From Haloarcula salinisoli (GTDB lineage Archaea > Halobacteriota > Halobacteria > Halobacteriales > Haloarculaceae): a DNA stretch of 64,000 bases. Positions within the stretch are counted from its first letter, which is position 1; the number at the start of each line of letters is the position of its first letter. The notes beneath the pieces are model-generated. The model saw nothing but the letters and a program-made list of their open reading frames with translations. It made no database searches and was not told the DNA's origin. The DNA is taken from positions 1,302,001-1,366,000 of the forward strand of contig NZ_RKLQ01000001.1 in the NCBI RefSeq assembly GCF_019599405.1. Reading direction: 5' to 3'. Position numbers and translations under genes: made by a program. Of this stretch, positions 24,197 to 51,504 are shown piece after piece.

Positions 24197-25369
24197 ATGG
24201 ACCGGCGTAGCTTGCTCGCCACGACAGCCGGGTTCCTGACAGCGTCATCGGCCGGGTGTCTCCGCCTCTCGAACCAGGAGACAGCGACAGTCACGCCGTC
24301 GGAAGCGGGGACTGACACCGAGACGGAATCCGACGGGGAAAAGTCGGGCCCCAGTCCGGGCTCACCGATGTTCCAGTACGACGCTGCGAACACGGGGACG
24401 AACACGGATGAAACCGGACCGCAATCCTCCGTCGAGGTAGAGTGGTCGTACGGGGAATCCACTAGCATGCTTTCGCCGCCGGCAGTCGTCGATGGGACCG
24501 TCTACGCCGCGGACGGCGCAGAGGTGTTCGCGGCGTCGGCCGACGACGGCAACAAGCAATGGAGCTTCGATACAGAGAGTACTGTATTTTCGTCACCGGC
24601 AGTGGTCGATGGCACCGTCTACTTCGGGAGTTACGATTTCAGCCTGTACGCGGTGTCGGCTGCGGATGGCACGGAGCAATGGTCGTCCGATATTTCCGTG
24701 AGTTCGTCGCCCGCAGTGGTCGATAACACCGTCTACGTCGTGAGTGGCGAGGGTAACGTGTACGCGGTATCTGCGGGGGCCGGCTCCGAGCAATGGTCGT
24801 ACGAGACAGGGGTTGCGACTTCGTCGCCCGCAGTGGTCGATAACACCGTCTACGTCGGCTTTGCCGACGGCACCGTATCCGCGTTATCGGCGGCCGACGG
24901 TACCGAGCAATGGTCCTTCCAGACTGGAAATCCGGTGCATTCGTCGCCGGCGGTGGTGGATGGTACGGTCTACGTCGGAAGTAACGACCACCATGTGTAC
25001 GCGATATCGGCGGCGGATGGCATCGGGCAATGGTCGTACAAGACCGGGGATGCCTGGCGGTCGGATGTGAGTGCGTCGCCGGCAGTGGCCGATGGCACTG
25101 TCTATATCGGGAGTGACACCGGCAGTGTGTACGCTTTGTCGGCCGAGGACGGTACCGAGCAATGGACCTTCGAAACTGGAGATTTGGTACAGTCGTCGCC
25201 AGTAGTGGTCGACGGGACCGTCTACGTCGGGAGCGACGACAACAATCTGTACGCGTTGTCGGCTGCTGACGGCTCCGAGCAATGGTCGTATGATACTGGG
25301 AGCCGAGTCGACACGTCGCCGGTAGTGGTCGATGACACCATCTTCTTCAGCGGCGGCGCCCTGTCGTAA
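24197..25369 (+). CDS. Beta-propeller (PQQ-like) lipoprotein 1 of 5
   Basis: 390 aa. The Tat/lipobox signal ends at Cys21. A linker and a SPGSPMFQYDAANTGT entry strand follow, then eight blades marked by ...SPAVVDGTVYVGS...YALSAADGTEQW. The protein is expected outside the membrane, lipid-anchored. The family includes PQQ dehydrogenases and BamB, but these short blades lack the cofactor residues of dehydrogenases, so a binding or scaffold role is more likely. The last blade is damaged: about nine codons are missing, and TAA (25367-25369) replaces the GAA that precedes CAG-TAG in the paralogues. A TATA-like tttattata at 24167-24175 suits its start. Confidence 0.85.
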   Translation: MDRRSLLATTAGFLTASSAGCLRLSNQETATVTPSEAGTDTETESDGEKSGPSPGSPMFQYDAANTGTNTDETGPQSSVEVEWSYGESTSMLSPPAVVDGTVYAADGAEVFAASADDGNKQWSFDTESTVFSSPAVVDGTVYFGSYDFSLYAVSAADGTEQWSSDISVSSSPAVVDNTVYVVSGEGNVYAVSAGAGSEQWSYETGVATSSPAVVDNTVYVGFADGTVSALSAADGTEQWSFQTGNPVHSSPAVVDGTVYVGSNDHHVYAISAADGIGQWSYKTGDAWRSDVSASPAVADGTVYIGSDTGSVYALSAEDGTEQWTFETGDLVQSSPVVVDGTVYVGSDDNNLYALSAADGSEQWSYDTGSRVDTSPVVVDDTIFFSGGALS

Positions 25370-25693
25370 CAGTAGCCGGTCCACTGCTGTCCCGGAGTCA
25401 GTGGGGTAGCGACTGGTTGCAGTCCGCACACCGATCGAGTATCGGGCGGCGACCATGCCGAAGGTGATTGTGAACACGCTGATAGCTGCGGTTCGAGGGC
25501 GGCAGGTCAGGTATCTGTCGGGATTACTGAGGCGTCGGAAGCTCGTATCGTTGGTGAGCGGCCGTTCGAGATGAACCGTCACATCCGCGATCAGACGAAA
25601 CTGTGAGAGCCTTTTCAGAGGAGTAAAATGACCGTCTGCGCCGCTCTATTTCGTTCCCAAATTTCTTATTACAATAGTGAATCTAGAAAATTT
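25370..25693. other. Spacer between propeller genes 1 and 2 with a PH-gene tail relic
   Basis: No intact gene is seen. Bases 25556-25603 can be read as RPFEMNRHIRDQTKL-stop, which aligns with KPFDVYESIREQTEL-stop, the C-terminus of the PH-domain gene at 23576. Sequence upstream of this is only doubtfully related. The AT-rich stretch 25649-25690 probably holds the promoter of gene 2. Confidence 0.5.
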
Positions 25694-26950
25694 ATGGACC
25701 GGAGGAGCCTTCTCGCCGCGACAGGCGGGCTACTGACTGCGTCATCGGCCGGGTGTCTCCGCCTCTCGGAGCAAGAAACCGGGGCAGCCACGCCGTCGGA
25801 AAACGGAACTGACACCGAAACGGAATCGGTCGAGGAACAGGAGACACCGACCGAGGAAGAGACCGACCCGGACGAAGAAATATCGGGCGATATTTCCGGG
25901 GCACCGATGTTCCGGTACGACGCTGCGAACACGGGGACGAGCCCGGACGAAACTGGCCCCAAAAACGCCGTCGAGGAACAGTGGTCCGCCAACTCTCTGG
26001 GCCAAGTGTATTCGTCACCGGCAGTGGTCGATAATACCGTCTATATCGGGAGCAGTGACGGCAGTGTCTACGCGTTTGCTGCGGCAGACGGCTCCGAGCA
26101 ATGGTCATATGAGACTGGCGACCACGTAGTTTCGTCGCCGGCAGGGGTCGATGGCACCGTCTACGTCGGGAGTGAGGACAACACCGTGTACGCGCTGTCG
26201 GCCGACGATGGCGCCGAACAATGGTCGTACGGGGCTGCGGGAATCGTGAACTCATCGCCAGCAGTGGTCGATGGCACCGTCTACGTCGGAAGTCACGACG
26301 CGAATGTGTACGCGCTGTCGGCCGACGACGGCACCAAGCAATGGTCGTACGAAACTGGGGGTTCCGTGGCTTCGTCGCCGGCAGTGGTCGATGACACCGT
26401 CTACGTCGGGAGTAGCGACGGCAGTATGTACGCGCTCTCGACCGACGACGGCACCGAGCAATGGTCGTACGAGACTGGGGATGGTGTTGGGTCGGCGCCG
26501 GCAGTAGTTGACGGCACCGTTTACTTCGGGAGTTACAGGGCCCGCAGCGATAGCGGCGGTGGTGCTGTGTACGCGTTGTCGGCTGCGGATGGTACAGAGC
26601 TGTGGTCGTACCAGACGGAGGGATATGTAGGTTCGTCGCCGGCAGTGGTCGGTAACACCGTCTACGTCGGGAGTTACGACCGTTCTGTGTACGCCCTGGC
26701 GACCGACGACGGTACCATGCAATGGTCGTACGATACTAACGATGCCGTGGCTTCGTCGCCGGCAGTGGTCGATGGCACCGTCTATATCGGGAGTCAGGAT
26801 GGCAACGTGTATGCGCTGTCGGCTGCGGATGGCACCGAACAGTGGTCGCACGGGGCTGGGGGCAACGTATTTTCGTCGCCAGCAGTAGTCGATGGCATCG
26901 TCTACGTCGGGACTTCCGACGGCACTGTGTTCGCGTTGTCGGAACAGTAG
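25694..26950 (+). CDS. Beta-propeller (PQQ-like) lipoprotein 2 of 5
   Basis: 418 aa, starting at 25694 with the twin-arginine lipobox signal (the frame extends 22 codons upstream without conserved character). An acidic Glu/Thr linker reaches residue 70, then GAPMFRYDAANTGTSPDETGP and eight blades. Blade 5 has an insert (SYRARSDSGGGAVYAL) that also occurs in gene 3. It ends in FALSEQ, which closes the propeller. Signal and linker (SEQETGAATPSENGT) match genes 3 and 4 more than 1 and 5. Confidence 0.87.
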   Translation: MDRRSLLAATGGLLTASSAGCLRLSEQETGAATPSENGTDTETESVEEQETPTEEETDPDEEISGDISGAPMFRYDAANTGTSPDETGPKNAVEEQWSANSLGQVYSSPAVVDNTVYIGSSDGSVYAFAAADGSEQWSYETGDHVVSSPAGVDGTVYVGSEDNTVYALSADDGAEQWSYGAAGIVNSSPAVVDGTVYVGSHDANVYALSADDGTKQWSYETGGSVASSPAVVDDTVYVGSSDGSMYALSTDDGTEQWSYETGDGVGSAPAVVDGTVYFGSYRARSDSGGGAVYALSAADGTELWSYQTEGYVGSSPAVVGNTVYVGSYDRSVYALATDDGTMQWSYDTNDAVASSPAVVDGTVYIGSQDGNVYALSAADGTEQWSHGAGGNVFSSPAVVDGIVYVGTSDGTVFALSEQ

Positions 26951-27069
26951 CCCGACCTGCTACGTCGCGAGTTCAGACGGAGTCCATTCTGACTGGCGTC
27001 GCCTGAAAGTCTGCGGGCGTTTGTGGTGTAGTGGGAACTCTTATTGCAACAGTATTGGAGTGTTAATTT

Positions 27070-28347
27070 ATGGACCGGAGAGCGTTCCTCGCCACGACGA
27101 CCGGGTTACTGACCGCGTCATCGGCCGGGTGTCTCCGCCTCTCGGAGCAAGAAACCGGGGCAGCCACGCCGTCGGAAAACGGAACTGACAACGGGACGGA
27201 TTCGGGCGAGGAAACGACGACACCGACAGAAGTTGAGACGACCGAGGAAGAGCCGGAATCGGAGGAAGAAAAATCGAGCGACATTTCCGGGGCACCGATG
27301 TTCCAGTACGACGCTGCGAACACGGGGACGAGCCCGGATGAAAGTGGCCCGAAAAACGCCGTCGAGGAACAGTGGTCCGCCAACTCTCTGGGTCCGGTGA
27401 ATTCGTCACCGGCAGTGGTCGACGGCACCGTCTACGTCGGGAGTAATGACAACAGTGTCTACGCGTTCTCCGCCGCAGACGGCTCCGAGCAGTGGTCATA
27501 TGAGACTGGGGGTGAGGTGTACTCGTCGCCGGCGGTAGTCGATGGTACCGTCTACGTTGGGAGTGGCGACGGCGCTGTGTACGCGCTGTCGGCCGACGAT
27601 GGCGCCAAACAGTGGTCGTACGAGACTGGGGCACAGGTGAACTCGCCCCCGACAGTGGTCGATGGCACCGTCTATATCGGGAGTCATGATTACAACGTGT
27701 ACGCGTTGGCGGCCGAGGACGGCACCGAGAAATGGTCGTACGAGACTGGGGGTTCCGTGTCTTCGTCGCCGGCAGTGGTCGATGGCACCGTCTACGTCAC
27801 TAGTGCCGATACCACTGTGTACGCGTTATCTGCCGCGGGCGGTATCGAGGAATGGTCGTATGACACTGGTGGTGATATCGGCGAGGGGTCATCGCCGACA
27901 GTGGTCGACGGCACCGTCTACGTCGGTCGTTCCGGGAACGGCAGCGATAGCGACGGTGGTCCTGTGTACGCGTTATCAGCTGCAGATGGCACAGAACAAT
28001 GGTCCTTTGAGACTGGAGATTCAGTGGCATCGACGCCGGCAGTGGCTGATGGCACCGTCTACGTCGGGAGCAACGACAACACTGTGTACGCGCTGTCGGC
28101 TGCCGACGGGACCGAACAATGGGCATTCGAGACTGAGGACCTTGTGATTTCGTCGCCGGCAGTGGTTGATGGCATCGTCTACGTCGGGAGCCGGGACAAT
28201 ACTGTGTACGCGCTGTCGGCCGACGACGGGACCGAACAGTGGTCGTACGGGACTGGGGGGTTCGTATTCTCCTCGCCGGCAGTCGTCGACGGCATCGTCT
28301 ACGTCGGGGATTTCGACGGCAATTTGTTCGCGTTGTCGGAACAGTAA
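27070..28347 (+). CDS. Beta-propeller (PQQ-like) lipoprotein 3 of 5
   Basis: 425 aa. It has the same Tat-lipobox signal (MDRRAFLATTTGLLTASSAGC), a longer acidic linker and eight blades, with the blade-5 insert (RSGNGSDSDGGPVYAL) corresponding to that of gene 2. It ends in FALSEQ. The 119-bp spacer before it closely resembles the spacer before gene 4, so genes 2-4 probably arose by duplication of one gene-plus-spacer unit. A TATA-like actcttattgcaac lies about 28 bp before the ATG. Confidence 0.87.
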   Translation: MDRRAFLATTTGLLTASSAGCLRLSEQETGAATPSENGTDNGTDSGEETTTPTEVETTEEEPESEEEKSSDISGAPMFQYDAANTGTSPDESGPKNAVEEQWSANSLGPVNSSPAVVDGTVYVGSNDNSVYAFSAADGSEQWSYETGGEVYSSPAVVDGTVYVGSGDGAVYALSADDGAKQWSYETGAQVNSPPTVVDGTVYIGSHDYNVYALAAEDGTEKWSYETGGSVSSSPAVVDGTVYVTSADTTVYALSAAGGIEEWSYDTGGDIGEGSSPTVVDGTVYVGRSGNGSDSDGGPVYALSAADGTEQWSFETGDSVASTPAVADGTVYVGSNDNTVYALSAADGTEQWAFETEDLVISSPAVVDGIVYVGSRDNTVYALSADDGTEQWSYGTGGFVFSSPAVVDGIVYVGDFDGNLFALSEQ

Positions 28348-28464
28348 CCCGGCGTTACTTCGCGGGTACAGACGGAGCCCATCCTGACTGGCATCGCCTG
28401 GAAGTCTGCGGGCGTTTGTTGTGTAGACGGAACTCTTAATGCAACAGTTGTCAAATCCTAATTT

Positions 28465-29715
28465 ATGAACCGGCGTAGCTTCCTCGCCACGACGGCCGGG
28501 TTCCTGACAGCGTCATCGGCCGGCTGTCTCCGGCTCTCGGAGCAGGAATCCGGGACAGCTACGCCGTCGGAAGAGGGGACTGTCACCGGGACGGAATCGG
28601 TCGAGGGAACGACGACACCGACCGAGGAAGAGTCGGATACAGACGAGGAGGGCCCAGGCGACATTTCAGGCGCACCGATGTTCAAGTACGACGCTGCGAA
28701 CACGGGGACGAGCACGGGTGAAACTGGCCCGAAAAACGCCGTCGAGGAACAGTGGTCGTATGAGATCGGAGAAAGGTTGTATCGACCGCCTGCCGTGGTC
28801 GATGGTACCCTCTACTTCGGAACTGCCGACGCCAATGTGTACGCCTTCTCGGCGATGGACGGTAACGTGGAATGGTCACACGACCCTACGGATTATTCCG
28901 ATTTGATAGTTTCGACGCCTGCAGTGGTCGATGGGACCGTCTACGTCGGAACCGACGCCGGTACCATGTACGCACTGTCGGCCAACGCCGGCACCGAGCG
29001 ATGGAAATATCATGCTGGTGGCTTGTTGCGTTCGCCGCCGACAGTGGTCGATGGCACGGTCTACTTCGGGACGGTAGACGACGGTGTGTACGCGTTAGCG
29101 GCCGACGACGGTGCCGAACAGTGGACGTACGAAGTAGGTCTGTCCGTGTATTCGTCGCTGGCCGTAGTGAACGACACCGTCTACATCGGCAGCTATGCCG
29201 CGGTATCGGCCGAGGACGGTACCGAGGTATGGTCCGGCAACTCCGATGTCACGCAACCGCCGACACCGGCAGTGGTCGATGGCACCGTCTACGTCACGCG
29301 TACCTACGTGGTAGACGGTGATTTCGTCGGTAGAGTGTACGCGGTGTCGGCAGACGACGGCACCGAACGATGGTCACATCAAAAAGAGAAGGACATACCG
29401 AGGTCTCCAGCAGTAGCCGACGACACTGTCTACGTTGGCTGTAACGACCACCACGTGTATGCATTGTCGACGGCCGACGGCACCGAGCAATGGGCATACG
29501 ACACCGGGGCAAAAGTGGACAGTACGCCAGCAGTGGTTGATGGCACCGTCTACGTGGGGAACGACGAAGGGACGCTGTACGCACTGTCGACCGACGACGG
29601 CACCGAGCAGTGGTCGTATCAAACGGGTTCGCCACTGTCCTCGCCAGTAGTGGTCGATGGCATGGTCTACGTCGGGACTGAAGACGGCACCGTGCACGCG
29701 CTGTCGGAACAGTAA
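28465..29715 (+). CDS. Beta-propeller (PQQ-like) lipoprotein 4 of 5
   Basis: 416 aa, the most divergent member. The signal begins MNRRSFLATTAGFLTASSAGC. Blade 4 is shortened (IGSYAAVSAEDGTEVW), blade 5 has its own insert (RTYVVDGDFVGRVYAV), and blade 6 carries a Cys (YVGCNDHHVYAL). Eight blades in total, ending HALSEQ. Blade sequences differ more from each other than in genes 2 and 3. Lipid-anchored surface protein of unknown ligand. Confidence 0.87.
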   Translation: MNRRSFLATTAGFLTASSAGCLRLSEQESGTATPSEEGTVTGTESVEGTTTPTEEESDTDEEGPGDISGAPMFKYDAANTGTSTGETGPKNAVEEQWSYEIGERLYRPPAVVDGTLYFGTADANVYAFSAMDGNVEWSHDPTDYSDLIVSTPAVVDGTVYVGTDAGTMYALSANAGTERWKYHAGGLLRSPPTVVDGTVYFGTVDDGVYALAADDGAEQWTYEVGLSVYSSLAVVNDTVYIGSYAAVSAEDGTEVWSGNSDVTQPPTPAVVDGTVYVTRTYVVDGDFVGRVYAVSADDGTERWSHQKEKDIPRSPAVADDTVYVGCNDHHVYALSTADGTEQWAYDTGAKVDSTPAVVDGTVYVGNDEGTLYALSTDDGTEQWSYQTGSPLSSPVVVDGMVYVGTEDGTVHALSEQ

Positions 29716-29778
29716 GCCGACGTCCCGTCGAAGAGCCTGAACCGACTCGCCGGCAGTGAGAACCGGATTTCCCGCAGT

Positions 29779-29845
29779 ACTCCACGTTCGCCCGCTCTTC
29801 CAGATCGACGTCTGGGACAGCATCCGGAAACAGGTTGAACTGTAA
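29779..29845. other. Duplication junction: tail of the 31213 gene joined to tail of the PH gene
   Basis: Bases 29779-29800 are identical to 31215-31236, the 3' end of the leftward gene after the cluster. Bases 29804-29845 read DVWDSIRKQVEL-stop, matching DVYESIREQTEL-stop at the end of the PH-domain gene, and the match continues through the upstream region of propeller gene 1. The two parts meet at a shared tcgacg. Confidence 0.75.
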
Positions 29846-29933
29846 ACCCCTCGGCAATGGCTGTTCGTCGCACCGAGAAATTTTCGCTCTCAAACGCGCT
29901 GTTTTTAATGTGATTACAGAGTGATTCGAAATT

Positions 29934-31154
29934 ATGGACCGGCGAAGTTTGCTCGCCACGACGGCCGGGTTACTGACCGCATCATCGGCCGGGTGTCTCC
30001 GCCTCTCGAACCAGAAGAGGGCGACAGCCACGCCGTCAGAGGCTGGGACTGAGGGTGAGACGACACCGGACGGGGAAGAGACGGAGCAGGACGAGGAAAT
30101 TTCGGGCGACATCTCGGGGGCACCGATGTTCCAGTACGACGCTGCGAACACGGGGACGAGCAAGGACGAAACTGGCCCGCAAACGCCCGTCGGTGAACTG
30201 TGGTCCTTCGAGACCGGGGGTTCGGTGGAAGCGCCGCCGGCAGTGGTCGACGGGACAGTTTACGTCGGAAGTCACGACGCGAATGTGTACGCGTTGAGAG
30301 CCGACGACGGCACTGTGCAATGGTCATCCGACGCATGGGAGGATGTGCGTTCGTCCCCGGCAGTGGTCGACGGGACCGTCTACGTCGGGGAAGCCACCGT
30401 GTTCGCGTTGTCGGCGGCCGACGGCTCCCAGCAATGGGAGTATAGCACGGAGGGTAACACGACGTCGTCGCCGGCAGTGGGTGACGGAACCGTGTACGTG
30501 GTAACTCACGCCGGGAACGTGTACGCGCTGTCGGCGGCAGACGGCACCGAACAATGGATATCTCAGACAGGAGCTTCTGTCACGTCATCGCCGGGAGTGG
30601 TTGACGGTACCGTCTACGTCGGTGGTGGGGACGTTTTCGCGTTGTCGGCGGCCGACGGCACCCAGCAATGGAAGCACAGCACGGGGGGGTACGTGAACTC
30701 GTCGCCGGCAGTCGTTGATGACACCGTTTACGTCGGGGACCAGTCCGACAATGCTGTGTACGCGTTGTCTGTGGCGGACGGTAGTGAGCGATGGACATCC
30801 CGGATTGGAGCTTCTGTGTCATCATCGCCAGCAGTGGTCGATGACACCGTCTACGTCGGGGGCACTGTCTACGTCGGGGACAACGAGGACACTGTGTACG
30901 CGTTGTCGGCGGCAGACGGCACCGAAAAATGGTCCTACCAGACTGAGAGTGGCGTGAATTCGTCGCCGACAGTGGTCGATGGTACCGTCTACGTCGGGGA
31001 TGACCACGGTACTGTGTACGCGTTGTCTGCTACGGACGGTACCGAGATATGGTCACATCGAGCGGGTGGGCGCCTGGCCTCACCTGTGGTGGTAGATGGT
31101 GTCGTCTACGTCGGGAGTTACGGTGACACTGTGTACGCGCTGTCGGAACAGTAG
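29934..31154 (+). CDS. Beta-propeller (PQQ-like) lipoprotein 5 of 5
   Basis: 406 aa. Signal and linker (MDRRSLLATTAGLLTASSAGC..SNQKRATATPSEAGT) match gene 1, and so does the DNA upstream of the start, so its 5' part derives from the gene 1 position. Eight blades follow. Blades 2 and 4 are short (VGEATVFAL, VGGGDVFAL), and blade 6 repeats its strand (VYVGGTVYVGDNEDTVYAL). It ends YALSEQ. It is the last member before the oxidase genes on the opposite strand. Confidence 0.87.
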   Translation: MDRRSLLATTAGLLTASSAGCLRLSNQKRATATPSEAGTEGETTPDGEETEQDEEISGDISGAPMFQYDAANTGTSKDETGPQTPVGELWSFETGGSVEAPPAVVDGTVYVGSHDANVYALRADDGTVQWSSDAWEDVRSSPAVVDGTVYVGEATVFALSAADGSQQWEYSTEGNTTSSPAVGDGTVYVVTHAGNVYALSAADGTEQWISQTGASVTSSPGVVDGTVYVGGGDVFALSAADGTQQWKHSTGGYVNSSPAVVDDTVYVGDQSDNAVYALSVADGSERWTSRIGASVSSSPAVVDDTVYVGGTVYVGDNEDTVYALSAADGTEKWSYQTESGVNSSPTVVDGTVYVGDDHGTVYALSATDGTEIWSHRAGGRLASPVVVDGVVYVGSYGDTVYALSEQ

Positions 31155-43697: not shown

Positions 43698-46400
43698 GTG
43701 GGAACTACAGGCGGCGACGGCGGTGACAGCGGCGTCGACAGCCGCCAGCTTCTCCTGGTCGGCATCTGTATATTCGGGTTGATAGCGGCCGCGTTTCTCG
43801 CACCCGTCGTCGACGCGGGCGGTCTCGGCGGTGGCGGCCCCGGCGAGGGCGATGGTGAGGGCGAGGGCGAGGGTGAGGGTGAAGGTGAGGGTGAGGGCGA
43901 TGCCGATGAGCGGGGCGAGATCGGCACAGTAGCGCCCAGAACCGTCGACGGCGAGCGCTCGCGGCGTACTGATGGCGAGCGCCGCCGTGGCGCCGAGGAG
44001 AACGACACTCGCTGGGTCACCGACGACGACGGCACCCGGTGGCGTATCGAAGAGAACGGCACGCGGTGGGTCAGCGACGACGAAGGCCCCCGCAGGGTCG
44101 TCGAGAACAACGGGACGCGGTGGGTCTCCGAGGAGAACGGCACCCGTCGGGTCGCAGAGCGCAACGGCACGCAGTGGGTCGTCGAGGAGAACGGGACGCG
44201 GTGGGTCAGAGACCGAAACGGGACCCAGTGGGTCGCCGAGAAAAACGGGACGCGGTACGTCGTCGAGGAGAACGGGACGCGATACATCGTCGAGGAGAAC
44301 GGGACTCGCTGGGTCAGCGACCGGAACGGGACCAGATGGGTCGCCGAAGAGAACGGAACGCGGTACGTCGAGGAGGCGAACGGAACGCGATACGTCGAGG
44401 AGGCGAACGGAACGCGATACGTCGAGGAGGCGAACGGAACGCGGTACGTCGTCGACGAGAACGGGACTCGCCGTCCGGGCGATGCCAACGACACCCGGTG
44501 GCCGACCGACGCTAACGACACCCAGTGGCCGACCGACGCCAACGACACGCAACGGCCCGTCGACCGAACACCCCCGCCCGAGCCCCCACAGACGGGGTGT
44601 GTAGCAATCGTGAGTGGGACACCGAAGCCGGGGACCCAGACCACAGTGCGCGTGACGGTCGACACCCAGCCGTCGGCCGGCGTTCGGGTCTGGTTCAACA
44701 ATCGGTTCGTCGGTCGCACAGACGACAGTGGCGCAGTGACCGGGACCGTTCCGTTCGTGACAGAACTGGACGTTACGGTGGAGTCTCCGACCGACGAGCC
44801 GTGTCGGTTCCCGCGCCGGGGGAACGGATCGGGGGCCGAGTCGGCTATCGGTAGTGGGGCGGCCGCCGCGGTCGGTCTGGGGGGCGCCGGGGCCGACCCA
44901 GCAATCGGTGTCACCGGTAACGACGCCGCGGTCCGAACCGACCAGACCAGCCAGTCCAACGCCCGAGGAGGCGTCAACAACTCCAGCCAGTACGACCTTC
45001 CGAGCAACGTCACCATTCGCGTCAACGGCGACCCGGTCGCGGGGTCGACAGTCACTCTCACCGCCACGGTCGCGGGGGTGGCGATGCCGAACGCGAGCGT
45101 GGCGGTCGACGGCACCCAGGTCGGGCGGACAGACGAGAACGGCCGGTACGAGTTGACAGTGCCGGACAGGGACCGAATCGAGGTGACAGTCAGTCGCGGC
45201 GAGATACGCGGCAACACGACCATCACCATCCCGCGGCTCTCGGTTCGCTTCGTGCCGCGACCGGTCGTCCCCGGGCAGCGAGCGACCGTCGTGGTGACAC
45301 GTGGTGGCGACCCCGTCGAGAACGCCTCGGTGACCCTCGACGGACAGCGCCTGGGGACCACCGGGCCGAACGGGACGGCCTCGTTCGGGCTGCCGCTGTC
45401 GGTCAGTGGGGCGGTAACGGCCACCGTCGGCCCGCAGTCTGCTACTGCCCCGCTGTGGCTGGCCTACTGGCTCACCGCCAGTCTGACACTGTTGCTGGCA
45501 TTTCTCACAGCAGTTACGACGGCGGTTACCGCCCGATGGCGCGGTTGGGGAGCCGCCCAACGGCTCGCGTACGTGTGGGCCGGCGTCTGGACGCTGTTTG
45601 TCGGCTACGTCCTCGGCAGGCGTCTCGGGCTGGCTGTCGGGGCGGTTGCAATCTTGCTCGTCGCGCTCTATCGCTATCGACGGGCCCTCTCCTCGGGCGG
45701 TGCGACGACTGTCGGGTTAGTCGGCGCGTTCCTCCAGTGGTGCAGTCGCGCCGTATTGTGGGTCGTCGAAGCCCTCGAATCGCTGGTGGACTGGGCCCGG
45801 GCGGGCGCCCAGCGACTCGCGGCGTGGCTGCGAACGTTGCCGACCTCGCTCTCGGGGCTCGCGGCGCGGCTGGCCGCCTGGCTCCGTTCGGTCCCCGCCA
45901 GCATCGGGGCCTGGCTGCGCTCGCTCCCGCTGGGTGGCGTCGCCGCAGTGGTCGGAGCCGTGGCTCTCGTCGCCGCCGCCACCTACGCCTTCGGTGGGCC
46001 CGGCTTCCTGGCCGCCGTTGCAGTGGTCCTCCTGGCCGGCCTGGGCTGGTGGCTCAGCCGCCGGGAGTCGGCGTCCCCGGCGGTCGACGATGCCGACGAA
46101 TCGGTTACGGCCGGCTCCGACCGGTCGACCGACGACGTGGCGGTGGCGCCGCTGCGGGCCCTGTGGCGACGGCTCGCGAGCTGGGTCCTGCCGGGGACCT
46201 GGCAGACGAAGACGCCCGCCGAGGTGTCGCGGGCGGCGGTCGAGCGCGGACTGCCCCGTGGACCGGTCGAGACGCTGACCGAGGCGTTTCGCGACGTCGA
46301 GTACGGGGGCCGGCCCGAGGAGGAGCGACAGTCCAAGGCCCGGACAGCCCTCGACGAAATTGAGCGCGCCCACGATGCAGACGAGGAGGAGCGAGAATGA
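43698..46400 (+). CDS. DUF4129-domain membrane protein with an N-x-T repeat stalk
   Basis: 900 aa from a GTG start, head of a five-gene operon. Order: membrane helix (17-38), Gly-Glu tract (50-68), 21 repeats of nine residues (99-287) of the type xxxNGTRWV, a proline-rich joint, two or three Ig- or carboxypeptidase-regulatory-like beta domains (about 300-580, with NASVAVDGTQVGRTDENGRYELTV), several helices (586-790) and a cytoplasmic DUF4129 domain (about 830-885, KTPAEVSRAAVERGLPRGPVETLTEAFRDVEYG). DUF4129 is normally linked to MoxR and DUF58 proteins. The repeat region should lie outside the cell. Function unproven; envelope assembly or surface-protein maturation is inferred. Confidence 0.85.
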   Translation: MGTTGGDGGDSGVDSRQLLLVGICIFGLIAAAFLAPVVDAGGLGGGGPGEGDGEGEGEGEGEGEGEGDADERGEIGTVAPRTVDGERSRRTDGERRRGAEENDTRWVTDDDGTRWRIEENGTRWVSDDEGPRRVVENNGTRWVSEENGTRRVAERNGTQWVVEENGTRWVRDRNGTQWVAEKNGTRYVVEENGTRYIVEENGTRWVSDRNGTRWVAEENGTRYVEEANGTRYVEEANGTRYVEEANGTRYVVDENGTRRPGDANDTRWPTDANDTQWPTDANDTQRPVDRTPPPEPPQTGCVAIVSGTPKPGTQTTVRVTVDTQPSAGVRVWFNNRFVGRTDDSGAVTGTVPFVTELDVTVESPTDEPCRFPRRGNGSGAESAIGSGAAAAVGLGGAGADPAIGVTGNDAAVRTDQTSQSNARGGVNNSSQYDLPSNVTIRVNGDPVAGSTVTLTATVAGVAMPNASVAVDGTQVGRTDENGRYELTVPDRDRIEVTVSRGEIRGNTTITIPRLSVRFVPRPVVPGQRATVVVTRGGDPVENASVTLDGQRLGTTGPNGTASFGLPLSVSGAVTATVGPQSATAPLWLAYWLTASLTLLLAFLTAVTTAVTARWRGWGAAQRLAYVWAGVWTLFVGYVLGRRLGLAVGAVAILLVALYRYRRALSSGGATTVGLVGAFLQWCSRAVLWVVEALESLVDWARAGAQRLAAWLRTLPTSLSGLAARLAAWLRSVPASIGAWLRSLPLGGVAAVVGAVALVAAATYAFGGPGFLAAVAVVLLAGLGWWLSRRESASPAVDDADESVTAGSDRSTDDVAVAPLRALWRRLASWVLPGTWQTKTPAEVSRAAVERGLPRGPVETLTEAFRDVEYGGRPEEERQSKARTALDEIERAHDADEEERE
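43992..44558 (+). repeat. 27-bp coding minisatellite, 21 units
   Basis: In-frame 27-bp units encode nine residues each, residues 99-287. Nineteen of 21 units keep Asn-Gly-Thr or Asn-Asp-Thr; units 2 (DGT) and 4 (EGP) have lost the Asn. Most continue with Arg/Gln, then an aromatic or Arg. Units 14-17 are nearly identical in DNA, the mark of recent expansion. Confidence 0.9.
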
Positions 46401-47299
46401 GACGGCTCACAATCGTGCTGGTCGGCCTCGGGACGTTGCTGGTCCTGCTGGGCGCTGGCTTTGGCCTGCTGTCCAGCGACCCCGCCACCAGGATACCGAG
46501 CTGGATCGCCGTGGTCGGTGGGTTGCTGGTATTCGGCCTGGCGCTCTGGAAGCTCGTGCGCTCGCCGGGCGGCGGGGAGTTCGCCGACGCTCCCTGGAGC
46601 GAGGGCGGCGCCATCGTAGCGGAGCCGCCGGAATCGACGCGGAAGACGGACCCCATCTCGGGGACCGCGCTGTCTGACGTCATCGAGACGGCCGCGAGCG
46701 ACGCCCGCCAGGACACCGTACAGGCGGGGCTGGCGACGGTCAGAACACCGCTTCGGGAGACCCTCGTCGCGGCACTGCGCCGGGGCGGCTGGGAACGGGA
46801 CCGTATCGAGGCGGCGCTCGCCGACGGGTCCTGGACCGACGACCCCGTCGCCGCGGCCGTCCTCGACGAGTCAGTCGTCCCTCCGGAACGGTCGCTCCGA
46901 CGGCGGGTCTGGGCGTGGCTCTTCCCCGGGAACGCGGTCCGTCACCGGACGGCCCGCGCCGTCGGGGCCGTCGCCCGGGCGGCCGACGGGTCGCTGCCGC
47001 CGGTCGTCGGCCAGCAGGCCCCCCGGCCGATGCCCGTGGTCGAACCGACGCTCGACGACCTCAAGCGGGCCACCGACGGGAGCCTGCGGCGGGCCGTCGA
47101 AGGGGGCGCGTCGGTGGGTTCCCCCGAATACGAGAAAGACGGCCCCGACGGGGACTCGGCGGCCCCGGACGACACCGACGCGACACCGGAGCGCGAGAGG
47201 GACGGGTCGACCGCGGACAGTGACACACGGAGAACCGGCGAGGAGGGCGAGGACAACGCTGTCGCGTGGCCGGGCGAGCGCTCGGGAGGTGACGACTGA
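46397..47299 (+). CDS. Membrane protein of the DUF4129/MoxR operon (DUF7269-like)
   Basis: 300 aa. Two helices at the start (about residues 4-26 and 36-55) are followed by a cytoplasmic region with ALSDVIETAASDARQDTVQAGLATVRTPLRETLVAAL and RGGWERDRIEAALADGSWTDDPVAAAVL, typical of a haloarchaeal family found only in this operon. The C-terminus is disordered and acidic. It overlaps the gene before (ATGA) and the gene after (TGATG), so translation is coupled. Confidence 0.75.
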   Translation: MRRLTIVLVGLGTLLVLLGAGFGLLSSDPATRIPSWIAVVGGLLVFGLALWKLVRSPGGGEFADAPWSEGGAIVAEPPESTRKTDPISGTALSDVIETAASDARQDTVQAGLATVRTPLRETLVAALRRGGWERDRIEAALADGSWTDDPVAAAVLDESVVPPERSLRRRVWAWLFPGNAVRHRTARAVGAVARAADGSLPPVVGQQAPRPMPVVEPTLDDLKRATDGSLRRAVEGGASVGSPEYEKDGPDGDSAAPDDTDATPERERDGSTADSDTRRTGEEGEDNAVAWPGERSGGDD

Positions 47300-48606
47300 T
47301 GGCCCGGCGGGTCCGCTGGCGCGGCGCGGTGGTCGCGACCGTCCTGCTGGGCTTTGTCGGCGGTATCGAGGGGAACGGGACCCTGCTGCTGGCTGCGACG
47401 ATTCCGCTGGCCTACGTGGCCTACGGCTCGGTGTCGACGGCCTCGGTGCCGGAGACCCTCACCGTCACCCGGCAGCTCGACCCGCGCGTCGCACCGCCGG
47501 GCCACCCGGTGACCGTCACCCTCGCCGTGACCAACGACGGTGAGCGGACGGTCTCGGACCTGCGCGTGGTCGACCCCGTTCCCGAGGACCTCGCAGTGAT
47601 GAAAGGAACGCCGAGAGGCGGGCAGACGCTCGAACCCGGTGAGACGCTGACGCTCTCCTATCTGGTCGTGGCTCGCCGCGGCGAGTTCGACTTCCCGCCG
47701 GCCCGTCTGCGGGTCCGGGGCTCCGGCGCGGGGGCCGTGGCGACGGCCGACCGAACGCCAGCGGGTGACACGCGACTGGTCTGCCGGCTGGACGCCGACG
47801 CGCCGCCGCTGTCAGACGTCGGCGACAAACGTGTAGGACGGCTCACGACGGACTCGCCCGGCGACGGGCTCACCTTCCACTCGACCCGGGAGTACCGCCA
47901 CGGCGACCCAGCCGGCCGCATCGACTGGCGTGGCTACGCCAAGCAGGGAGAACTCTCGACCATCAACTACGACCGGCAGGTCTCGGCGACGGTCGTGTTC
48001 GTGCTGGACGCCAGGAAGGCCGCGCGGGTGGCCGCCGGGCCGGGCCGCCCGACGGCTGTCGAACTGGGCGCGTACGCCGCGACGCGGGGCCTCAACACAC
48101 TGCTGGGCGCCGGCCACGACGTCGCCGTCGCCGTCGTCGGCGTCGACGGTGACGGGCCGGGCGGGCTGGTGTGGCTGCCGCCGGGCAGCGGGAGCGAACA
48201 GCGCTCGCGGGCCATCGCGGTGCTTGGCGAGGCCATCGACGCGGCCCCGGCGAGCGGGCGAGACCCGACCCGGCAGGCCCGCAAACTCGGCGGCCTGGTC
48301 GGGCGGGCGGCCCAGTTCGTGCTGGTCTCGCCGCTGCTCGACGACGCGCCGGTCGCGATGGTCGAGCAGTGGTCCGGGTCCGGCCAGTCACGAACAGTGC
48401 TCTCGCCCGATATCGTGGCGTCGAACACGGTCAGTGGCCAGTACGAACAGGTCCAGCGCCGGACCCGGCTGGCCCGCTGTCAGGCCGGCGGGGCCCGGAC
48501 CATCGACTGGCGGCGCGGGACGCCGCTGCCGACCATCCTCGAAGCGACCTTCGCCGTCGAGGCCCACCGGGCCGGCGACAGCGTCCGCGCGGGAGGTGGG
48601 GGCTGA
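47299..48606 (+). CDS. DUF58 domain protein
   Basis: 435 aa. Two N-terminal helices (about residues 10-45), an external or membrane-proximal beta domain (VTVTLAVTNDGERTVSDLRVVDPVPEDL, residues 60-145), then the DUF58 signature TREYRHGDPAGRIDWRGYAK (about residues 195-215) and a von Willebrand A-like fold (TVVFVLDARKAARVA). The metal-site DxSxS motif of true VWA domains is altered here to DARKA. DUF58 proteins work with MoxR ATPases in protein or complex assembly. Confidence 0.88.
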   Translation: MARRVRWRGAVVATVLLGFVGGIEGNGTLLLAATIPLAYVAYGSVSTASVPETLTVTRQLDPRVAPPGHPVTVTLAVTNDGERTVSDLRVVDPVPEDLAVMKGTPRGGQTLEPGETLTLSYLVVARRGEFDFPPARLRVRGSGAGAVATADRTPAGDTRLVCRLDADAPPLSDVGDKRVGRLTTDSPGDGLTFHSTREYRHGDPAGRIDWRGYAKQGELSTINYDRQVSATVVFVLDARKAARVAAGPGRPTAVELGAYAATRGLNTLLGAGHDVAVAVVGVDGDGPGGLVWLPPGSGSEQRSRAIAVLGEAIDAAPASGRDPTRQARKLGGLVGRAAQFVLVSPLLDDAPVAMVEQWSGSGQSRTVLSPDIVASNTVSGQYEQVQRRTRLARCQAGGARTIDWRRGTPLPTILEATFAVEAHRAGDSVRAGGGG

Positions 48607-50052
48607 ATGGCCATCGGAGGGACGCGCCTGGACAATCCGTCCGCCGTCGGTGACGAGGGCCGACCGCGAGGGGCCAGCCTGACTGTCATCGCCGTCGTCG
48701 TCGTCGCGGTGCTCGCCGCCGCCGGCTACCTCGTCGGCAAGCCGCTCATGTTCACCTCGTTCGCGCTGTTCGTCGGGTTCATGTCGGCCGGGATGGCGCT
48801 GCTGTCCCGGGACCGCCTGCAGTCCACAGTGCTTGGCCACCTCCTCTTTCTCCCGTCGGCCGTGGTCCTCTCCGCGCTGGTCGGCGCCAGCGGCCTGCTG
48901 GGCCTGGCGACTCCGGGGGTCGCCGCGCTCGCGGTCGGGGCCCTGGCCGCGATGTTCGGCGTGGCCGCCGGCTGGAACGACGCCTTCGACCGGTCGACGG
49001 TCAGGACGACGCTCGTCGAAAGCGGGCTCTCGTACCTGCTGTTCGTCGTGTGGCTTGTCGTCCTGGGTGTCTTCGTCGGCCTCGGCCTTCTCGGCCGAGG
49101 GGTAGTGCTGTCGCTCACGCGAGGGGCCGGTTCGGTCGTTTCCTTTTTCGGCCTGTTCGGACTGCTCGCCATCGCAGCCTTCTGCCTCTACGTCGCGGTC
49201 CGGGCGTTCCCAGCCATCGAACTGACGCCGGTCCACCGCCGGGACGCCGCGAGAGCGCGCTATAGACGGCTCAAATCCACATTGCTCCGGCTGACGGCGG
49301 TCGCTGGTATTGCCGTCGTCGTCGGCTTCCTGGGCCTGGTGACCGGGACGATACAGCCACTCCTGTCGGTGCCGTTCGTCGGCGGGCCGATAGTCGTGCT
49401 GACCCGGCTGACCGCGATTCCGCTGGCCTCGGTCGCCACGCTGGCCCTGATTATGGCGGTACTTGCCTGGGTGACCCGCCGGGCGACCGCGGGCTTCGAG
49501 AACCTCTCGACCCGGACGGTCGGAGCGGCCGTCGCAGCGGTCTGTTACTCCGTCGCCTTGCTGGCTTCTATCCCTACCTTCCTCCGGCTGGGCTACATTG
49601 GCGTCGCGTTCTTCTACCTCGTCCCGGTGCTCCCGCTGCTCGTTTACCTTGGCCTCGTGGGTGTCGTGATTGGCTTCGCCACCGGGATGCTCCCCGGCCG
49701 AGCCGCCTCGCCGGCAGTCGTCGCGGCCGGGCTGGTCGCGATGGGACTGGGCGGCGCCATGTACGGGTTCCCGTCACTGTTCGTCTTCGCTGCAGTGACG
49801 GGCGCGCTCGTCACCTGGGACGTGGGGACGTTCGGACTGAGCGTCACCGCCGAACTGGGGCACATCCCGGAGACGCGTCGACTGGAGCTGTACCACGGCG
49901 TCGTCGCGGTCGGCATCGGGCTGGTCGCCGTCGCCGGGCTGACCGTGATAGACCTCGCGCGTCGGTCGGTCGGGTCGGGGATCGGGTCGCCCACCACGAT
50001 GGGGCTGGCGGTCCTCGGCGTCGTGCTGGTGGCCGTCGGGCTGCGGGGGTAA
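48607..50052 (+). CDS. Polytopic membrane protein of the DUF4129/MoxR operon (DUF7519-like)
   Basis: 481 aa with roughly 12 hydrophobic helices and very short loops. The order and spacing suggest a transport- or scaffold-like bundle, but no transporter motif is visible. It starts one base after the DUF58 stop, so it is translationally coupled. Known to me only as a haloarchaeal partner in this operon. Confidence 0.75.
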   Translation: MAIGGTRLDNPSAVGDEGRPRGASLTVIAVVVVAVLAAAGYLVGKPLMFTSFALFVGFMSAGMALLSRDRLQSTVLGHLLFLPSAVVLSALVGASGLLGLATPGVAALAVGALAAMFGVAAGWNDAFDRSTVRTTLVESGLSYLLFVVWLVVLGVFVGLGLLGRGVVLSLTRGAGSVVSFFGLFGLLAIAAFCLYVAVRAFPAIELTPVHRRDAARARYRRLKSTLLRLTAVAGIAVVVGFLGLVTGTIQPLLSVPFVGGPIVVLTRLTAIPLASVATLALIMAVLAWVTRRATAGFENLSTRTVGAAVAAVCYSVALLASIPTFLRLGYIGVAFFYLVPVLPLLVYLGLVGVVIGFATGMLPGRAASPAVVAAGLVAMGLGGAMYGFPSLFVFAAVTGALVTWDVGTFGLSVTAELGHIPETRRLELYHGVVAVGIGLVAVAGLTVIDLARRSVGSGIGSPTTMGLAVLGVVLVAVGLRG

Positions 50053-50157
50053 TCGCGTTCTATCCGCGCCACTGGAGCAGAAAAAACCCGGCAGGGCCGG
50101 ATAGCGACTCGCTCGCGGATGACACACTTTCATGAGAGCGGCGGCCGATTCACCGGT

Positions 50158-51504
50158 ATGAACGAATCGAGCCTGACGCCCGAGGCGGCCGCCGGGCGCT
50201 GTCGGGACATCGTCGACAGGGTGGAGGAGGCCGTGGTCGTCGAGCGGCGCGTCCTGTACGAGACACTGGCGGGCATCATCGCTCGCGGTCACGTCCTCGT
50301 CGAGGACGTCCCGGGGACCGGCAAGACCGTCCTGGCCCGCGTCCTCGCGGAGTCACTCGGCCTCACGTTCACGCGCATCCAGTTCACGCCGGACCTCCTA
50401 CCGGCTGACGTCACCGGCTCGAACATCTACAACGAGCACGAGGGGAACTTCGAGTTCGCAGAGGGCCCCGTCTTCACGAACGTCGCGCTGGCCGACGAAA
50501 TCAACCGCGCGCCGCCGAAGACCCAGGCCGCCCTGCTTGAGTCGATGGAGGAGCGCCAGGTCAGTATCGACGGGACGACCCACGACCTCCCCGAGCCGTT
50601 CGTCGTCATCGCGACGCAGAACCCGGTCGAGCAGGAGGGGACCTTCCGCCTGCCCGAAGCCCAGCGGGACCGCTTCAGCGTCAAGACCTCGATGGGGTAT
50701 CCCGACGTCGACGGGGAGATGGGGCTGCTGGAGATGCGGGCCAATCGACGGACTCTCGCGCCCAGTGTCGACCCGGTCGTGACCCCCGAGACGGTGCTCG
50801 AACTGCAGGAGCTGGCGGAGGACATCCGGGTCGACGAGAAGGTGCGCCGCTACATCGTCGACCTCGCCCGGGCGACACGGGCGGACGACCGCACGGAGAT
50901 CGGCGTCTCTCCCCGCGGGGTCCAGCGTGTGTTCGAGGCGGTGCGGGCAAGCGCCGTCATCGACGGTCGCGAGTACGCCACGCCGGAAGACGTAAAGCGG
51001 ATGGCCCGGGCGACGATGAGCCATCGGCTCATCCTGACGACCGAAGCCACCGTCGAGAACGTCGACCCCGACGACATCGTCCAGTCGGTGCTCGACAGCG
51101 TGGACGTGCCCGCCGTCTCGCCGGACGCACCGTCCGTCTCGGCCAACGGGGAGGCGAGTGTCGAGGGCGGGGCCGAACAGCTCGCCCCCAATGGGGTGAG
51201 CGACGACGGTGACGGGAGCCGTCCGAAGACGGCCGTCGAGCAGGCCGACAGCCAACCGGCGCCAGGAAACCAGCGGGACGACGGACAGGACGAGCAGGCC
51301 CAACCGGTCACCGACACCCCAGCCGACCAGCCCGACGACACCCCTGCCGACCAGCCCGACGACACCCCTGCCGACCAGCCCGACGACACCCCTGCCGACC
51401 AGCCCGACGACACCCCTGCCGACCAGCCCGACGACACCCCTGCCGACCAGCCCGACGACACCACCGACGCCGAGCTAAACGACCTGTTCACGGACGACGA
51501 GTAG
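50158..51504 (+). CDS. MoxR-family AAA+ ATPase
   Basis: 448 aa. Walker A VEDVPGTGKTVLA (Lys56), Walker B VALADEINRAPPKTQAALLESMEE, sensor 1 VIATQNPVEQEGTFRLPEAQRDRF and sensor 2 in VSPRGVQRVFEA are intact. MoxR ATPases remodel DUF58/VWA partners. ATG 50158 (MNESSLTPEAAAGRC) is chosen over a frame 13 codons longer. After residue 325 the tail is disordered and holds six copies of DTPADQPD (residues 386-433) and an acidic end (LNDLFTDDE). It follows the polytopic gene by 105 bp, so it may have its own promoter. Confidence 0.92.
   Translation: MNESSLTPEAAAGRCRDIVDRVEEAVVVERRVLYETLAGIIARGHVLVEDVPGTGKTVLARVLAESLGLTFTRIQFTPDLLPADVTGSNIYNEHEGNFEFAEGPVFTNVALADEINRAPPKTQAALLESMEERQVSIDGTTHDLPEPFVVIATQNPVEQEGTFRLPEAQRDRFSVKTSMGYPDVDGEMGLLEMRANRRTLAPSVDPVVTPETVLELQELAEDIRVDEKVRRYIVDLARATRADDRTEIGVSPRGVQRVFEAVRASAVIDGREYATPEDVKRMARATMSHRLILTTEATVENVDPDDIVQSVLDSVDVPAVSPDAPSVSANGEASVEGGAEQLAPNGVSDDGDGSRPKTAVEQADSQPAPGNQRDDGQDEQAQPVTDTPADQPDDTPADQPDDTPADQPDDTPADQPDDTPADQPDDTPADQPDDTTDAELNDLFTDDE
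51313..51456 (+). repeat. 24-bp coding tandem repeat, six units
   Basis: Six in-frame copies of a 24-bp unit encode DTPADQPD in the tail of the MoxR ATPase. Copies 2-6 look identical at DNA level and the first differs by one base, so the array is recent and probably variable between strains. Confidence 0.9.

Follow-up and report, generated by a model that had tools for sequence, protein, structure and literature searches.

A sequon array in a DUF4129 membrane protein

The locus described here raises the question of what is formed by a protein segment in which the N-glycosylation sequon N-x-T recurs every nine residues, and whether it is the sequon or simply the repeat that is being kept. It lies within the window, meaning the whole stretch of 64,000 nucleotides that was analysed (positions 1302001–1366000 of the contig, in the 4.03 Mb genome of Haloarcula salinisoli), and the gene, its parts and the operon genes given below are on the plus strand. 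The open reading frame at 43698–46400 has a GTG start and its translation gives a DUF4129 membrane protein of 900 amino acids. An N-terminal hydrophobic segment (residues 20–38; 43755–43811; hydropathy 2.65), which is preceded by a basic residue and is kept in orthologues, would serve as signal anchor or signal peptide. It is followed by a Gly/Glu-rich linker (residues 39–101; 43812–44000) that is predicted to be disordered (pLDDT mostly <50), by the array itself, and, after a Pro-rich junction, by an ectodomain (residues 291–591; 44568–45470) of Ig-like/CarboxypepD-like beta domains. These are seen in the structural model, with weak CarbopepD_reg matches at residues 444–507, and the ectodomain contains eight further sequons. 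Transmembrane segments assigned by hydropathy (residues 592–819; 45471–46154) contain no sequon, and the protein ends in a DUF4129 domain (PF13559; residues 820–886; 46155–46355) that is predicted to be cytoplasmic and matches its profile at 30.4 bits, above the curated cut-off of 24.8.

Phased on Asn, the array comprises residues 102–290 (44001–44567) and consists of 21 nonapeptide units of the form N-G-T-[RQ]-[WY]-[VP]-x-[DE]-x, of which 19 contain N-x-T; the remaining two read DGT (unit 2) and EGP (unit 4). The unit table shows a strict 27-bp period without a single insertion or deletion, in agreement with the preliminary description, whose interval of 43992–44558 differs only in starting the phase three residues before ours. 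Tandem Repeats Finder also called the 27-bp array, as tandem repeats at 43991–44467 and 44480–44558. In 20,000 shuffles of the array residues the mean number of sequons was 2.7 and the maximum 9, compared with the 19 observed, and Asn makes up 10.6% of the array versus 2.0% of the remaining protein. The x position of the sequon is most commonly Gly but can also be Asp or Ser. Units 14–16 are near-identical and represent recent copies. An acidic residue stands two positions before nearly every Asn of the array ([DE]-x-N-x-T; 44001–44567). Such an extended sequon is a requirement of the bacterial oligosaccharyltransferase PglB, although here the pattern may reflect merely the general acidity of halophile proteins.

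Distribution and age of the array

When the array was used as query against 146 genomes of the family, only the window genome and Haloarcula rara SHR3 (G017), the nearest array-bearing relative, gave matches. The two species differ in unit number, 21 in the window and 13 in H. rara, where 11 units have the sequon, and units 1–9, the degenerate second and fourth among them, are co-linear between the two. The anchor, ectodomain, transmembrane segments and DUF4129 domain are common to haloarchaeal DUF4129 proteins of this operon type, but the other 26 orthologues have at the place of the array a linker of 16–111 residues that has no more than one sequon and is in most cases rich in Gly, Ser and Asp. 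They thus lack the entire array and not merely its Asn residues. Since the array is found in two species and 26 orthologues have a short linker instead, it is probably a young, lineage-specific insertion that was born in the lineage of the two Haloarcula species and has since changed in length. In H. rara the gene (L006) shows two single-base frame-shifting differences after the ectodomain, which may be sequencing errors or indicate decay of the sister gene.

Other candidate relatives were rejected. A second locus in the window genome (L002; G000:C2 969116–969421) encodes an exported-looking protein with a nine-residue SDDDSSTGG repeat; composed of Ser, Asp, Thr and Gly, this repeat contains no sequons and is not a relative. 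Order-level sequence matches (L037–L040) proved to be of low complexity or in the wrong frame, with no homologue among them, and a search of viral contigs gave no relative.

Selection on the sequon

Comparison of all unit pairs within the window array gave pN 0.119 and pS 0.533 for the sequon codons (omega 0.14), compared with omega values of 0.78 for residues 4–6 and 1.12 for residues 7–9. The H. rara array shows the same trend (0.20 for the sequon, 1.04 for residues 4–6 and 1.07 for residues 7–9); all of these values are nominal, as the units are related by descent and the pairs are not independent. Between the species, the seven co-linear sequon units (21 codons) differ by four synonymous changes and no amino-acid change, and every co-linear unit that has Asn in the window array has kept it in H. 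rara. Taking both species together, all 30 units that have Asn also have Thr, compared with only one of the four that lack it, a sign that the Asn and Thr of the sequon are kept together. A pure Asn-Gly turn would not need the Thr and would allow Asp. In the codons for Thr and for the acidic residue at position 8, the first two bases hardly vary whereas the third is highly variable, so that position 8 also looks constrained, given that Asp/Glu swaps count as amino-acid changes. Over the whole unit the plus frame has an omega of 0.57 and is tied by one antisense frame (0.57). The plus frame was retained since the domains, the sequon pattern and the orthologues are all in that frame. Among the diverged units, then, the sequon codons are under strong purifying selection: the sugar-attachment signal is kept, and most other positions of the unit drift.

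Topology and capacity for glycosylation

All 27 sequons of the protein fall within residues 102–558, after the single N-terminal hydrophobic segment, and none is found in the transmembrane or cytoplasmic part. By this topology, which is derived from hydropathy, the array is predicted to lie outside rather than inside the cell. Leaving the array aside, the ectodomains of eleven orthologues contain 70 sequons and the rest of these proteins three. Asn is also scarce outside the ectodomains and the contrast reflects both effects, but the bias fits the use of sequons outside the cell. STT3/AglB is encoded at two places in the genome (PF02516, above cut-off). We infer from the gene complement and the predicted topology that the protein is exported and that its array is N-glycosylated by AglB. 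Hence the densely glycosylated extracellular stalk put forward in the preliminary description gains indirect support from the sequon-focused selection, the predicted outside location and the presence of AglB.

AglB-dependent N-glycoproteins are known in haloarchaea. In Haloferax volcanii, 102 AglB/Agl15 glycosites have been reported on 39 proteins, among them HVO_2160 with 19 confirmed N-glycosylation sites (PMC8241124). The array protein resembles glycoproteins of the HVO_2160 type in being haloarchaeal, predicted to be exported and rich in N-x-S/T sequons in a genome that encodes AglB. It differs in that the sites of HVO_2160 are confirmed, whereas those of the array are predicted and recur in tandem, strictly every nine residues, on a DUF4129 protein; a literature search found no nonapeptide sequon array in archaea.

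Predicted fold of the array

AlphaFold2, with the two natural arrays as input, places one strand in each unit, at approximately positions 3–8, with Asn-Gly at the turns. The mean pLDDT is 65, rising to ∼80 in units 13–17 and falling below 50 at the Pro-containing end. A model that includes the ectodomain gives the same layout of one strand per unit, and there the beta domains are well modelled. With Foldseek and VIA-align the best match of the array model was the TCP10/G-box of CPAP (Z 11.3 over 159 residues, rmsd 5.6), followed by MORN repeats and OspA, all of which are single-layer sheets. The array is therefore modelled as what is probably a free-standing, single-layer antiparallel beta-meander, although the model is shallow, being based on two sequences, and could be biased by the repeat. 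The beta-solenoid that had been offered as an alternative to a stalk is not what the model suggests, as each unit contributes one short strand and the nearest folds are single-layer meanders; among the structural matches listed no solenoid was recognised, the top-ranking ones being meanders.

The G-box of CPAP/SAS-4 is built of ∼20 antiparallel strands in a free-standing meander. Each hairpin matches a repeat in the sequence, in many cases turning on PDG, and those who described the domain saw it as without parallel in natural proteins (PMC3776556; PDB 4bxp, 4ld1 and 4mpz). The modelled array shares with it the ∼20 short antiparallel strands, the match between hairpin and repeat and a Gly at the turn. 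The G-box, however, is eukaryotic and cytosolic and has no sequons, and the array contains no PDG turns, its own reading x-N-G-T or x-N-D-T. No sequence relationship was detectable with the Tcp10_C profile (PF07202), which scored the array at 6.4 bits (9.0 in the genome search) against a cut-off of 36. As to the lower-ranked matches, OspA uses its sheet to connect globular domains and MORN repeats have longer units than the array, and sequence similarity to them was not detected. The GlxA beta barrel profile (PF21110) matched at 29.5 bits (cut-off 27) but in two stretches, the better covering profile positions 4–54 of 105, and this is probably periodic beta similarity. Weak sequence matches of the array in the PDB (beta-propellers and designed Cake propellers) were set aside on the same grounds.

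If the hairpins turn on the two residues Asn-Gly, Arg 4 would lie opposite acidic residue 8 of the adjacent strand, the aromatic residue opposite residue 7 and Val opposite Val, and such cross-strand pairing would explain which positions of the unit are conserved. Glycans would then sit on one edge of the ribbon and the other in turn, with a spacing of roughly 10 Å along each edge. Since Asn-Gly also strongly favours beta-turns, conservation of the array may be partly structural.

Nine-residue sequon arrays across haloarchaea

Of 391 genomes in the class, 61 contain a DNA pattern of four N-x-T motifs at nine-residue spacing, compared with 23 for a T-x-N control that keeps composition and spacing; a reversed-pattern control was set aside because reversal alters codon composition. 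Scoring by codon usage put 38 of the 67 N-x-T loci in the coding frame, against 8 of the 24 T-x-N loci. Six loci fit both patterns, one of them being N-P-T and not a sequon, which leaves 32 exclusive N-x-T loci versus two exclusive T-x-N loci (two-sided binomial p∼7e-8, a nominal value, as the 32 include the array in the window and some arrays are homologous to each other). Because their unit sequences are mostly unrelated, nine-residue sequon arrays must have arisen many times in haloarchaea. Crude criteria detect a signal of Sec, Tat or transmembrane type in 28 of the 34 array proteins with a readable start, and examples such as L107, L111, L119, L122 and L133 are mostly of Sec, Tat or lipoprotein type. 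These five resemble the array of the window in period, in sequon and in belonging mostly to exported proteins. Other haloarchaeal arrays differ in their units, which are unrelated and mostly acidic or Pro/Thr-rich, and the Arg-aromatic-Val strand is absent in those that were read. Two sequon arrays (L092 and L097) are in proteins without an export signal. L097, an acetyltransferase-like protein with VDGENGTAE repeats, warns against taking every sequon array to be glycosylated.

Proposed origin and role

We propose, as the likely although by no means certain explanation, that the array is a lineage-specific, exported and densely N-glycosylated beta-meander stalk on an operon-encoded DUF4129 membrane protein; glycosylation is proposed because of the selection on the sequon, the predicted outside location of all sequons and the presence of AglB. 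The array would be an insertion that separates the Ig-like domains from the membrane anchor at the N-terminus. Its 27-bp unit was duplicated repeatedly, as the 13 and 21 units of the two species show, and selection, seen in the omega of 0.14 on the sequon codons, then kept N-x-T in almost every copy, supposedly since AglB would glycosylate the Asn outside the cell. Each nonapeptide would form a short beta-strand (T-R-aromatic-V-x-acid-x) with a hairpin turn at Asn-Gly, as suggested by the modest-confidence model and the register, giving a single-layer antiparallel meander with glycans on alternating edges. Such a stalk may act as a hydrophilic spacer that keeps the Ig-like domains off the membrane. 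The further idea, that the array is a free-standing meander of a single beta layer bearing N-glycans at almost all of its hairpin turns, and one case of convergent haloarchaeal nine-residue sequon arrays, is more tentative; no description of a glycosylated beta-ribbon stalk was found.

The same repeat could be structural and sugar-free, N-G being kept as a beta-turn former and T as a strand-favouring residue with the sequon incidental, as in the cytosolic G-box, whose hairpins turn on PDG without sugars (PMC3776556). Asn-Gly is indeed at every turn of the model and Gly is the commonest x residue of the sequon. On the other hand, N-D-T and N-S-T units hold Asn and Thr yet lose the Gly, and D-G would be an equally good turn, yet Asp very rarely replaces Asn although it is more frequent than Asn in the rest of the protein. 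In addition, Thr decays in units without Asn and other haloarchaeal arrays hold N-x-T without N-G, and we regard a sugar-free repeat as unlikely.

Less probable still is an N-glycosylated but extended or disordered, mucin-like stalk with no beta-meander. Orthologues have disordered Gly/Ser/Asp linkers at the place of the array, the other haloarchaeal sequon arrays, acidic or Pro/Thr-rich, look disordered and confidence in the array model is modest, but the aromatic and Val positions, which alternate with charged ones, are largely kept, and strands appear in both models with pLDDT up to ∼80. Neutral expansion of a functionless tandem repeat, its conservation due to recent copying only, would account for the difference in unit number, the near-identity of units 14–16 and the restriction to two species among the 146 genomes searched. 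It is hard to reconcile with the low omega of the sequon codons and with Thr and acidic codons that are nearly fixed at bases 1 and 2 and highly variable at base 3, and we give it equally little credence.

If the sugars of the proposed stalk are present, the array would be a very dense archaeal N-glycosylation platform, and with its countable units (13 or 21) it would offer a natural scaffold on which to study what N-glycans contribute to surface stalks at high salt. If true, a meander of this free-standing kind on the surface of an archaeon would be of structural interest, and the case could credibly prove more unusual should fold and sugars both be confirmed. The recurrence of nine-residue N-x-T arrays in coding frame, far above the T-x-N control, suggests repeated selection and makes them a direct target for glycoproteomics.

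Operon and neighbourhood

The genes downstream of the array gene overlap or adjoin one another and, from open reading frames and Pfam matches, encode a DUF7269 membrane protein that overlaps the array gene's stop (46397–47299; 83.9 bits), a DUF58 protein (47299–48606), a DUF7519 membrane protein (48607–50052) and a MoxR-type AAA ATPase (50119–51504; AAA_3, 212.6 bits). The DUF4129/DUF58/MoxR context had thus been correctly recognised in the preliminary description. A literature search found no paper joining DUF4129 with haloarchaea, the rare mentions of DUF4129 being unrelated, and no role for the DUF4129/DUF58/MoxR operon. DUF4129-type paralogues in other genera (L068 and L069) have an apparent transglutaminase-like core at the place of the linker, a hint that the operon might encode a cell-surface protein-processing complex. 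Two further repeats were seen in the window: the C-terminal tail of the MoxR gene contains a near-perfect 24-bp tandem repeat (DDTPADQP, ∼6 copies, 51312–51483), and several arrays with a period of ∼120 bp at 24589–30879 correspond to PQQ-like beta-propeller repeats.
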